64,000 nucleotides of DNA, taken from contig CASGEL010000003.1 of assembly GCA_949300485.1 (NCBI GenBank), positions 124,001 to 188,000 on the forward strand. The letters run 5' to 3'. Positions 34,072 through 38,247 of the stretch are shown here, in pieces. Source of the DNA: an uncultured bacterium. GTDB taxonomy: Bacteria; Cyanobacteriota; Vampirovibrionia; Gastranaerophilales; Gastranaerophilaceae. The notes under the pieces are model-generated. The model did not search any database. It saw only the letters and a list, made by a program, of their open reading frames with translations, and was not told where the DNA came from. The stretch's first letter is position 1. Every line of letters begins with the position of its first letter. Position numbers and translations under genes: made by a program.

Positions 34072-34599
34072 TTATATTTCGCCGTATTTTGCTTTGAACG
34101 CGTTTTCGACCATTTCCGCCGTTATTGTCACGTCTTCAAAAGTTATCGGCATTAAACTTTTTGCAACTCCGCAATATACATCACTGCAATATGTTAATTG
34201 TATTTTTACTTCTAAATTCGCCTCAAGATAAGCGTTTATTTGTTCTAAAGTTAACCCGAAGCCCTGCAATACTCCGATAAAATCAAGCGGGGTCATAGTT
34301 AGTTTATTGATTCGGATTTCTTCTTCTAATGCTTCCGCCTGCGCAATGGTTATCAATTGATAACCGTCGGGTATTTCGCCGTAATTCTCAATGTCGCAAA
34401 TTTCGCCGTCTTTAATCATTTTATGGGTAAATCTATAATCGTTAAAAATTTCCCATTCCTGCGAATCGCTGTCAAAAACTGCGACTTCATTTTCTTCAAC
34501 TTCTGGCGGTGCAATAGTTGTCAACCCCTCTTTAACTTCGGTTTCAAAAGGTAACGTCATGGAATATTCGCCATTTTCAAGATTGTAAGCATAAAGCAT
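34072..34599 (-). CDS. Internal in-frame gene: tail-associated protein, 175 aa
   Basis: An ATG at 34599 lies in the RT frame, preceded by AAAAGGAG 7 bases upstream, an almost ideal Shine-Dalgarno, better than that of the RT itself. The protein begins MLYAYNLENGEYS, like many tail-fibre-adjacent proteins. It contains an acidic central region and a C-terminal unit (MTPLDFIGVLQGFGLTLEQ to TAEMVENAFKAKYGE). The same residues also form the C-terminus of the RT. So a free 175-aa protein is probably made, with a minor RT-fusion form. Confidence 0.75.
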   Translation of the reverse strand: MLYAYNLENGEYSMTLPFETEVKEGLTTIAPPEVEENEVAVFDSDSQEWEIFNDYRFTHKMIKDGEICDIENYGEIPDGYQLITIAQAEALEEEIRINKLTMTPLDFIGVLQGFGLTLEQINAYLEANLEVKIQLTYCSDVYCGVAKSLMPITFEDVTITAEMVENAFKAKYGEI

Positions 34600-35652
34600 G
34601 TTTAACTCCTTTTCAATTTTATAAACTGATTTTCGCGCGTTTCTATGAAGCATTGACCCGCGCCACGAATCAAATGCCCTTTTTATTTCTTCGGCTGTCA
34701 TTTTGCCGTTATTATATAGCCGAATCATGCGTCGAAATCTGCGGCGCGCCCGTGTTATACTTTCACGGCTCGGTTTCTTGATTATTTTATTGCCTACGAT
34801 TTTATATCGAGTTTTTAAAAATTTAAAATGTTGAGTTAATGGAATAATTTTTGTCTTTTTTAAATTGATTACAATTCCTAAATCTGAATACATTTTAAAT
34901 AAAATCTTGGAAAAATTTTTCAATTTTTCTTTGTCTTCACTGATAATATAGGAGTCGTCCATATATCGACCGTAGTATTTAAAATTATGTTTTATAAAAT
35001 GGTCGATTTTATTTATGTATAAAATCGCGTTAAATTGACTTGTTTCACTCCCTAACCCTAACCCCTTTTTATAGGCTGTTATAAAGCGAATAACTAATTT
35101 TTTAACTTTTTCGTCTGTTAAATTTTTATTATAAAAATCAATTAACGGTTGATGTTTTATATTTTCAAAATATTTTGAAAAATCAATTGTTAAAATATAA
35201 CCGTTTTTATGTTTGCGCAAAAATTCCCGCAAATGTTTTTCTAATGTTCTGCTTGCAAATAATGTTCCTTTTCCGACTTGACTTGCTGAATTTTCTTTAA
35301 TGAACGAGCCTGCGAAACGGGGATTTAATATTTTAGAACATACCAATTTTTGAATAACACGCTCGGAAAACTTTAAACTTTGAATTTCGCGTCGTTTTCC
35401 TCTTTCACATATATAAAAATGTGTGAATCCTTTTCGGATGTCTTTTCCTTTTAATAAATCTGTTTTTAGCGCATAAATTTTAAATAAAATATTGATATTA
35501 AATCTTTGAACGCTTTGTTTCCATGATACAAGACGCGTGGATTGTTTAACCGCCTTGTATAATTCTTCAAGATTTGCAATTTGTTTAATATTTTCGGGCG
35601 GTTTTTGTCTTTTTAATGCCCGACGTTCACGCCTTTTGCTTCTTCTGCTCAT
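34072..35652 (-). CDS. Diversity-generating retroelement reverse transcriptase, fused in frame to a tail-type protein
   Basis: Reverse transcriptase that copies the template repeat and introduces adenine-specific mutations. Residues 1-345 are the RT: DFSKYF (157-162, motif A Asp), LGSETSQ (200-206, the SQ typical of DGR RTs), YMDD (230-233, catalytic Asp pair) and a basic C-terminal helix (RRFRRMIRLYNNGK). DGR RTs normally end here. Instead the frame continues without a stop into residues 352-526, which read like a separate phage tail protein and have their own start at 34599. The full product would be 526 aa. The start at 35652 has no clear Shine-Dalgarno, so expression may be low, as is common for DGR RTs. 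Confidence 0.93.
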   Translation of the reverse strand: MSRRSKRRERRALKRQKPPENIKQIANLEELYKAVKQSTRLVSWKQSVQRFNINILFKIYALKTDLLKGKDIRKGFTHFYICERGKRREIQSLKFSERVIQKLVCSKILNPRFAGSFIKENSASQVGKGTLFASRTLEKHLREFLRKHKNGYILTIDFSKYFENIKHQPLIDFYNKNLTDEKVKKLVIRFITAYKKGLGLGSETSQFNAILYINKIDHFIKHNFKYYGRYMDDSYIISEDKEKLKNFSKILFKMYSDLGIVINLKKTKIIPLTQHFKFLKTRYKIVGNKIIKKPSRESITRARRRFRRMIRLYNNGKMTAEEIKRAFDSWRGSMLHRNARKSVYKIEKELNMLYAYNLENGEYSMTLPFETEVKEGLTTIAPPEVEENEVAVFDSDSQEWEIFNDYRFTHKMIKDGEICDIENYGEIPDGYQLITIAQAEALEEEIRINKLTMTPLDFIGVLQGFGLTLEQINAYLEANLEVKIQLTYCSDVYCGVAKSLMPITFEDVTITAEMVENAFKAKYGEI

Positions 35653-35908
35653 AATATGTTATGTGTAGATAATACAAGACAATTGCGTCTTGACCTTTTT
35701 ATTATTTTTCCTACTAAACCGCCAAATATAAAACAAATATCAATCGGCTAAATTCTTTGCTATGCACGAATTAACGGCGAACATTTGTCGATTACATAAC
35801 ACCAATTTATGAACGATAATCGTTCAAAGGTCTTTCGTTCCTTTCGTATATTGGCGTTGATTTCGCTTTAAATTATTTTAAAGTTACTACGTCCAGCCTT
35901 ATAGAAAT
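35653..35908 (-). other. Leader between the template repeat and the RT gene
   Basis: No open frame. Contains two hairpins: TGAACGA/TCGTTCA near 35812-35828 and CAAGAC/GTCTTG at 35675-35692. In known DGRs a structured RNA next to TR is needed for cDNA priming, so these stems are candidates. Function inferred from position. Confidence 0.5.
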
Positions 35909-36008
35909 CCGAAGCACGCCGAAATGTTAGTATTCGTAGCATTGTTCTGGTTGACATTACCGTTCGCGTTGACATTGCACACATTCGTAGACGTATTACC
36001 AGACGGGT
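35909..36008 (-). repeat. DGR template repeat (TR)
   Basis: Aligned to VR (offset 608) with no gap. All 11 differences are T in the plus strand here, A on the coding strand. On the coding strand it is rich in AAT/AAC codons at the sites that vary. At its low-coordinate end the homology stops after CTTCGG (35908/36516 differ), the expected IMH-type boundary. It ends just before the Avd gene stop and lies upstream of the RT. Confidence 0.92.
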
Positions 36009-36023
36009 GTTATAACGAAAAAC

Positions 36024-36443
36024 CTATTTTGTTGTATATTTTCTTGTTGAATCCGACTTTTTCCATGCTTTTAATAAATTTAACTCAACGCATAATAAAT
36101 CAATAATTTTATCAAGACTTGAAATTGTAACCGAATCAACCGTCTTTTCTAATTTAACAATATAATTTTGAAGTTGAAAACAATTCGCAATCGCTTTGAC
36201 TTGATATTCTTTTCTTTGTTCGATTTCTGTTGTATTTGTCGGAAATATCGAATTTGCAAATGTTATATTGTCGACTAATTCATCAACTTTATTGATTATC
36301 GGAACGCCTATCAATAACCGATATTTTTTCGGGATAAATTTTTCTTTTGTGCAATATTTCGTCAATTCCGATTGTAATTCAAGCGCGTTTATTATAAATT
36401 GCGTTTCTGTTTCGCCTCTGAATCTTTTATAAACATTTGACAT
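36024..36443 (-). CDS. Avd-like DGR accessory protein
   Basis: 139 aa, all-helical. KYRLLIGVPIINKVDELVDN and NCFQLQNYIVKLEKTVDSV match the style of accessory variability determinant (Avd) four-helix bundles, which bind the RT and the RNA and are needed for mutagenic priming. It lies between the tail-fibre gene and TR, the usual place. Its stop is 16 bases before TR. Alternative: a related four-helix bundle protein of similar role. AAAGAG precedes the ATG. Confidence 0.8.
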   Translation of the reverse strand: MSNVYKRFRGETETQFIINALELQSELTKYCTKEKFIPKKYRLLIGVPIINKVDELVDNITFANSIFPTNTTEIEQRKEYQVKAIANCFQLQNYIVKLEKTVDSVTISSLDKIIDLLCVELNLLKAWKKSDSTRKYTTK

Positions 36444-36500: not shown

Positions 36501-37613
36501 TTAGCCAATACGAAAGCCGAAGCACGCCGAAATGTTAGGATTCGTAGCATAGCGCTGGGTGACACAACCGTTCGCGTTGACATAGCACACAATCGTAGAC
36601 GTATCACCAGACGGGCAACATAGCCAATAATTTGAGCGCGCGCCCGTATTTGCCCCGACTTTTGCCCTTGAATTATACATAAACAAAGGATATTGACGCG
36701 TCATATTTCGGGTTAAATTGTCAATATTCGCGCTTGCGTCGTTTGACCTGTTGTATGAATTTGGCTGATATCCGCAAACTTCCACTTCATGCGGTAGCCA
36801 TAATTTACCCATGTCAACCCAGTCATAACCAGACGGATAATTAACTTGTTTTGAAGCGTTATATTGTTTTTCCATCCAGTTACGTTTCTGAATCAATACA
36901 TTTTGACATTCAGTCGGTAACATTTGTAAAATACCGCCTGATGAACAATTTAAACCATGTTGTAAATTGCCTTGTGCTGATGTCGAATAATTATTAACCC
37001 CGTTTAATATTGCATAAAGTCTTGATGATTTATACGGGTTTTGTTCTGCTGACGTTCCGTTATTTGTATTTCCGCCGTTCCATGTAAAACAGGTTTCGAC
37101 GGTTTTTTCTGATATAAAATCTATATGGTGCGGGATTGGAGTATCACCCCAATTATAATATGTATCAATCCCCGCAACTTGCATTTTATGCTGTTGATTT
37201 GCGCTTATTTGATATTCACCGCCGATTGTTCCGCCTGTAAGAGTAACAGGGATATAGTCGCCGATATGTATTCCCGAAAAATTAGCGGATTGGATTCGTG
37301 CTTTTATCCATGCCCATACATTCCCGCTATAAGAAGAATTGATTTCGCTTGCATGTTTAACCGATAAATCAACGGGGGTATATAATCCGTCTGTTACTGA
37401 ACGAATTAAATTCATTGCAGAATCTGACAAATTGTCAAAATCTTTTGTTGCGCTTTCCCCGCTTAATGTTGATACTGATTCGTCCAATTCTCCAACTTTT
37501 TCGTCTATTTTATCCCAATTGTCGTTTAAATCACGGTCGAATGAAAAAGTATCGTTGCTATCCGTTGCCATATTGGTTTTATACAAATTCAAATTTTCGG
37601 TATAAGTCCCCAT
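36501..37613 (-). CDS. Tail fibre/receptor-binding protein with DGR-diversified C-terminus
   Basis: 370 aa. N-terminal 70 residues attach to the baseplate (NLYKTNMATDSNDTFSFDRD, a phage fibre start). The middle has Gly/Asn/Ser-rich strands. The C-terminal domain (about 270-370) resembles a C-type-lectin/DUF6273-like receptor domain, with LWLPHEVEVCG, YWLCCPSG and ending ISACFGFRIG. The last 33 residues lie in VR. Variable positions (Asn in TR) fall in this region: TR asparagines are Asp, Ile, Tyr, Cys, Thr, Arg and Tyr here. The gene lies after the DUF2313 baseplate gene. Confidence 0.92.
   Translation of the reverse strand: MGTYTENLNLYKTNMATDSNDTFSFDRDLNDNWDKIDEKVGELDESVSTLSGESATKDFDNLSDSAMNLIRSVTDGLYTPVDLSVKHASEINSSYSGNVWAWIKARIQSANFSGIHIGDYIPVTLTGGTIGGEYQISANQQHKMQVAGIDTYYNWGDTPIPHHIDFISEKTVETCFTWNGGNTNNGTSAEQNPYKSSRLYAILNGVNNYSTSAQGNLQHGLNCSSGGILQMLPTECQNVLIQKRNWMEKQYNASKQVNYPSGYDWVDMGKLWLPHEVEVCGYQPNSYNRSNDASANIDNLTRNMTRQYPLFMYNSRAKVGANTGARSNYWLCCPSGDTSTIVCYVNANGCVTQRYATNPNISACFGFRIG
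36517..36616 (-). repeat. DGR variable repeat (VR)
   Basis: 3' end of the tail-fibre gene. 89 of 100 positions equal TR. Differences are at 36539, 36551, 36553, 36554, 36559, 36565, 36566, 36584, 36592, 36605 and 36616, and each corresponds to a template A. The final codons (ending ISACFGFRIG) carry the invariant IMH-like end. Confidence 0.93.
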
Positions 37614-37626
37614 TGTTTTATTCTCC

Positions 37627-38247
37627 TTATTCTACATAACAAAATAAATTTTTCTTGGTTGATTCCATTTCGGCTTTTGTCATAACGCCGTTTATATCTT
37701 TTTTAAGCAAAAAGTTATATATCCACGAAACGATTAAATAAGCGGGTTTAAAATCATCAACCATTGATTTTAAATTATCCAAATCGGGCGGGATTCCGTA
37801 TTCGCTTATAAATTCAATTCTTATTATTCCGTCATTGACAAAACGTTCTTTTTTATATGTTTCCATTTCGCCTTTTGTTAAAATATTATTGATTTCGCCT
37901 TTACGAATAGCCCTGTAAAAATCAACCTTAACTTGACCGTTTCGCCATGCGTCGCAAATATCTTGAATTAATTTAACGTCGTTATGTCTGCTTGCATTCC
38001 ATTTTGCTTGAATTTTTGAACGTCTGTAAATCAAATCGTTATCGGTCGGAGTTATTTTTAAATGATTTTCCCACCACTTTGCGCCGTTTTCGTCTAAACT
38101 ATCAAAAAAAATATTGTTCTTGATAGAATCGCAAATCATACTTATATTATTAAATACTTTTGAAACGGCTTCGGTAAAATCGTTTATAAACGGGTCTTTT
38201 CGATAAACTGCATTTATAAGCGCAATAATTTCGTCTTTTATTGCCAT
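37627..38247 (-). CDS. Baseplate/tail protein, DUF2313 (YmfQ/XkdU type)
   Basis: 206 aa. DUF2313 features: a helical N-terminal part with NDLIYRRSKIQAKWNASRHNDVK and the later EYGIPPDLDNLKSMVDDFKPAY. In Mu (gp48) and PBSX (XkdU) this protein finishes the baseplate wedge and precedes the fibre gene, as here. Start has GAGGAATAACAGGC-ATG. Stop is at the fibre's Shine-Dalgarno. Confidence 0.85.
   Translation of the reverse strand: MAIKDEIIALINAVYRKDPFINDFTEAVSKVFNNISMICDSIKNNIFFDSLDENGAKWWENHLKITPTDNDLIYRRSKIQAKWNASRHNDVKLIQDICDAWRNGQVKVDFYRAIRKGEINNILTKGEMETYKKERFVNDGIIRIEFISEYGIPPDLDNLKSMVDDFKPAYLIVSWIYNFLLKKDINGVMTKAEMESTKKNLFCYVE

Follow-up and report, generated by a model that had tools for sequence, protein, structure and literature searches.

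An RT frame that reads into a tail-fibre-assembly gene in a Gastranaerophilales prophage, probably through a one-base spacer difference

Why does the reverse transcriptase (RT) frame of a DGR read without a stop into a tail protein that keeps its own start? We met this arrangement in a window of 64,000 nt (the whole stretch of DNA analysed here) from an uncultured bacterium of Gastranaerophilales, and asked if the locus encodes a purposeful fusion or two genes that share a frame by chance. We consider it probable that two ordinary neighbouring genes are accidentally in frame here, that they would give a free tail-fibre-assembly-type protein (TFA) and a passenger-tagged RT, and that the fusion has no selected function. 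Since the two genes are kept apart in every relative that we found, the join is best read as a lineage-specific one-base quirk and not as a designed fusion.

The open frame and its internal start

The fused ORF lies on the minus strand (the initial annotation gave no strand) at positions 35652..34072. It is a single ORF that starts with ATG, has 526 codons and no internal stops, and encodes 526 aa, of which residues 1-351 (34600..35652) are a DGR RT and residues 352-526 (34072..34599) are the TFA. DGR RTs carry the motif xGxxxSQ together with a YMDD active site, and the RT part has LGSETSQ and YMDD, which makes it a DGR-type RT. In addition, residues 85-279 match RVT_1 (1.6e-18), and residues 8-353 match PHROG 1423 'Reverse transcriptase' (1.6e-67). 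The best match among solved structures was bRT (8ub7, 2.6e-19), which was also the best fold match. Its alignment pairs query residues 24-333 with residues 11-306 of the 328-aa chain and is confined to the RT part, so that without the tail the RT is already complete. It had been noted before that the frame stays open past the usual end of DGR RTs, at about residue 345. This is correct, as the RT part is 351 aa long and ends approximately where bRT ends.

The TFA has 175 aa and is a separate gene in all relatives. Its sequence matches PHROG 105 'tail fiber assembly' (5.6e-7), and PHROG 105 was also matched by all seven of the TFA homologues tested. However, the Pfam tail-fibre-assembly model gave no match in any of the seven family members; thus, the assignment of the TFA rests on PHROG and on gene position. 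The TFA resembles the phage tail-fibre assembly proteins of PHROG 105 in sequence and in the post-fibre position that it has in non-DGR relatives, and differs from them in the missing Pfam match and in being reached through an in-frame RT. We also observed that the last ~80 residues of the TFA (34072-34330) are ~61-65% identical to the ends of otherwise unlike proteins in the TFA position of other genomes of the family (L172, L173, and L175), which suggests module exchange among tail-assembly genes.

An AlphaFold model of the 526-aa protein, built on an input alignment of 20 rows, had a mean pLDDT of 81.5 and a pTM of 0.59. In this model, the RT closes with a helix (340-351), and a low-confidence stretch (352-373, mostly pLDDT < 50) leads to a separate C-terminal domain. 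The modelled RT part reached a TM of 0.80 against bRT (by target length). The model fits two independent proteins that are joined end to end with a disordered linker between them.

The junction (34597..34615, minus strand) consists of the Shine-Dalgarno sequence (SD) AAAAGGAG, a 6-nt spacer (TTAAAC), and the TFA ATG at 34599, and the SD sits within the last RT codons. Meanwhile, no SD precedes the RT start (...CACATAACATATTATG), and the same absence was seen at the RT start of the closest relative, L121. The claim that the tail-type protein has its own ATG and a better SD than the RT start is thus borne out. The initial annotation also proposed two products from one locus. For the free tail protein, the sequence agrees, because relatives share the start and the SD at loci where a fusion is impossible; the fused product is a prediction from the open frame. 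A concealed TFA start was considered and rejected, since RNA folding around 34570-34650 was ordinary (z 1.17).

The DGR cassette and its prophage

The minus-strand order of genes is Mu Gp48-like tail protein (37627..38247; PF10076, 1.1e-14), DGR target (36501..37613), Avd, TR, RT, TFA, a small protein, a DUF1353 protein, an XhlA-like protein, and a GH108 endolysin. The target is a putative tail fibre of 370 aa that sits after the Mu Gp48-like gene and has the variable repeat (VR, 36512..36630) at its 3′ end; a check for a C-type-lectin-like domain in it gave one sub-threshold match to DUF6273 (0.0019). The Avd-like accessory protein (139 aa, 36024..36443) matches PHROG 3206 'Avd protein of DGR' (4.6e-5), and the template repeat (TR) occupies 35904..36022. 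A comparison of TR with VR across 119 nt shows 18 mismatches, of which 14 fall at TR adenines; the 104-nt core, taken from ACCCGTCTGG or CCCGTCTGG onward, has 11, every one of them at a TR adenine. With a DGR-type RT, an adenine-specific TR/VR pair, and an Avd-type accessory protein, the cassette is, judged from its sequence, a complete and standard DGR of target, Avd, TR, and RT. In Bordetella phage BPP-1, a structured DGR RNA spacer occupies the position between TR and RT (PMC12875486), and by analogy the TR-RT spacer of the window (35653..35903) may be its counterpart.

The DGR of BPP-1 (mtd-avd-TR-brt; bRT structures 8ub7-8ubf) has the target-Avd-TR-RT order, the adenine-specific TR/VR differences, and the fold and length of the RT in common with the one described here. 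However, its bRT is a separate protein of 328 aa, whereas the RT frame of the prophage continues into the next gene. The DGR of Roseburia phage Shimadzu (LR596903) shares the order tail protein-fibre-Avd-RT, and its RT is 47% identical, but this RT and a short hypothetical gene overlap by 4 nt as two separate genes. RTs of 45-48% identity were also seen in MAG contigs from deer rumen/reticulum (L126, L128, L130, and L135), labelled Selenomonadaceae, Alphaproteobacteria (two contigs of one MAG), and Bacteroidales. Either horizontal spread or mis-binning could have placed them there.

Upstream ORFs (tail, capsid, portal, and terminase-like) and a downstream serine recombinase-like ORF appear intact (their roles were read from translations), and the host element looks like an intact Gastranaerophilales prophage. 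The closest named relatives among genome contigs include Gastranaerophilales/Melainabacteria MAGs, some of whose contigs are the same as those of genomes of the window's own family. Taken by itself, the DGR is a phage cassette of an ordinary kind in this uncultured gut lineage. If the DGR were decaying, the join might reflect an RT released from selection, and the presence of the join in this lineage alone would agree with this. However, the catalytic motifs of the RT are intact, Avd and the target are open, the TR/VR core mismatches are confined to adenines, and the prophage looks otherwise intact. Thus, we regard decay as quite improbable, and the RT probably still serves the DGR.

The junction in related loci

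The order RT then TFA was also found in L121, L042, L215, L003 (G087), L002, L043, and L208 (G280). These seven loci represent six distinct ones, as L042 and L215 are apparently near-identical copies. None of the seven has a fused RT-TFA, and the TFA is either out of the RT frame or located after the RT stop. For instance, 7 nt separate GGAG from the TFA start in L121, L003, and L002, where the TFA is in the +1 frame relative to the RT; in L042/L215, the distance is 8 nt and the frame is +2. L043 has a TFA in the +2 frame that overlaps the RT stop, and in L208 the TFA begins downstream of the RT stop. Where the TFA SD lies in the last RT codons, the SD-to-start spacers, with that of the window included, are 6, 7, 7, 7, or 8 nt. 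The 6-nt spacer of the window places the TFA in the RT frame and leaves the RT without a stop, so the RT reads through into the TFA. The fusion is therefore not conserved in related prophages, as one would expect it to be in a functional RT-fusion protein such as RT-Cas1, and its absence from homologues is what the initial annotation had itself named as speaking against it. Programmed frameshifting was considered as a conserved route to a fusion and rejected: the TFA is in +1 in L121, L003, and L002 but in +2 in L042 and L043, and one and the same shift could not yield the fusion in all of them.

The closest relative, L121 (IMG/VR 3300026522_001170), shows identities of 77% (RT) and 67% (TFA), and it has the same order of gp48, target, Avd, TR, RT, and TFA and the same TFA SD. 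Its junction reads GGAGTTAAAACATG, compared with GGAGTTAAACATG in the window, which has one A fewer. With the extra A in the spacer, the RT of L121 stops just inside the TFA gene, and the TFA is in the +1 frame. Over 1,581 aligned bases of RT and TFA, we found one 3-nt indel and one 1-nt indel, and the latter falls exactly in the SD-ATG spacer. The earlier idea of a recent stop-codon loss came close to this, but the stop codon itself was not mutated; the cause is a 1-nt difference in the spacer. When viral contigs were scanned for the exact pattern, with 0-2 bases at the spacer left variable, only the unfused L121 was retrieved, and scans with RT and TFA profiles found no fusion besides that of the window.

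A single A in a short A-run, carried in the fused form by one assembly only, could also be an assembly or sequencing error; the true junction would then have four As (GTTAAAACATG, not GTTAAACATG), and the genes would be separate. However, runs of 3-4 As are not error-prone for short reads. In the stretches compared between this genome and a same-genus genome, none of 33 orthologue pairs (12,772 aa) included a frame-split gene. Furthermore, gp48, target, and Avd align to L121 without frame-changing indels, and the spacer varies from 6 to 8 nt among relatives. For these reasons, an error at this position is unlikely.

Gene order and RT C-termini

In loci with no RT between the two genes (L035, L036, L045, L171-L173, L175, L176, L178, L180, and L184), the TFA lies directly 3′ of a tail-fibre-like gene, the fibre role being read from translations. 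Thus, gene order explains why the TFA is next to the RT: the Avd-TR-RT block of the window separates the diversified fibre from the TFA, which makes the RT the gene that happens to precede the TFA. L045 shows that a TFA need not follow the RT, with a TFA-like gene (642-1217) behind a fibre-like gene, ~3 kb before the RT.

Our reading of how two ordinary genes share one frame is as follows. The DGR cassette (Avd, TR, and RT) sits between a diversified tail fibre and the assembly gene of that fibre, the ribosome-binding site of the TFA is contained in the last RT codons, and relatives show that the two genes overlap. How far the TFA start lies from this site drifts within a range of 6-8 nt. At 7 or 8 nt, as in relatives, the TFA is out of frame and the RT stops a few codons on; at the 6 nt of this genome, the RT frame is stopless and continues into the TFA. 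We infer that the strong internal start would then supply free 175-aa TFA for its usual job as a tail-fibre chaperone, and that the weak RT start would give a low amount of a 526-aa RT to which the TFA is attached as a flexible C-terminal passenger. The RT would keep its DGR role, because in relatives the RT C-terminus is extended by arbitrary tails, one of them as long as 83 aa, and so this end of the RT looks tolerant. Two long RT extensions were set aside, that of L026 (110 aa) for belonging to a distant RT (22% identity) and that of L051 (83 aa) for having no TFA match.

The comparison was extended to 116 distinct related RT C-termini, with the downstream gene defined mechanically. Overlap with the downstream ORF out of frame was found in 66 of them (48 in +1 and 18 in +2), a separate ORF lay downstream in 29, and an in-frame join occurred only in the window. 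The in-frame share of overlapping pairs is therefore 1 in 67, compared with a nominal 1 in 3. If one-third were the true rate, a count of 1 or fewer in 67 would have a nominal binomial P of 5e-11, a value that is uncorrected for relatedness and depends on the mechanical definition of the downstream gene, and we take it as a sign, not a precise test, that in-frame joins are usually removed. With in-frame joins below a share of one in three among relatives, neutral drift of the frame alone does not account for this one. The join may carry a cost, or a rare survivor may have a use.

Such a use had been suggested, with the fusion as a tie between the mutator and the tail. No stop interrupts the frame at the join, both domains are intact, and the DGR target is the adjacent fibre, all of which would suit an RT-TFA fusion selected for tethering the DGR enzyme to the machinery of tail-fibre assembly. 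However, the fusion is missing from the seven same-order loci and from the other 115 distinct RT C-termini, and we found it on no other DGR RT. In addition, in none of 50,697 phage records was 80% of the fused protein covered at a single place. DGR mutagenesis acts on DNA through RNA/cDNA, so no use is known for linking it to a tail chaperone. We therefore consider selected tethering very improbable, and we give little credence to an RT that has the TFA as its C-terminal domain, is made alongside free TFA, and links mutagenesis to the assembly of the diversified fibre. The fusion partners named in passages of a survey of bacterial RTs include Cas1, HEPN, nitrilase, maturase, and primase domains, and a tail-fibre assembly partner is not named in those passages (PMC8934634).

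As a by-product, these comparisons revealed that overlap between related DGR RT genes and the genes that follow them is very common and almost never in frame. Because overlaps are common and in-frame joins are rare, the prophage offers a natural test of how well a DGR RT tolerates a C-terminal passenger. We also observed that overlaps in the +1 frame exceed those in the +2 frame among the related RT genes.
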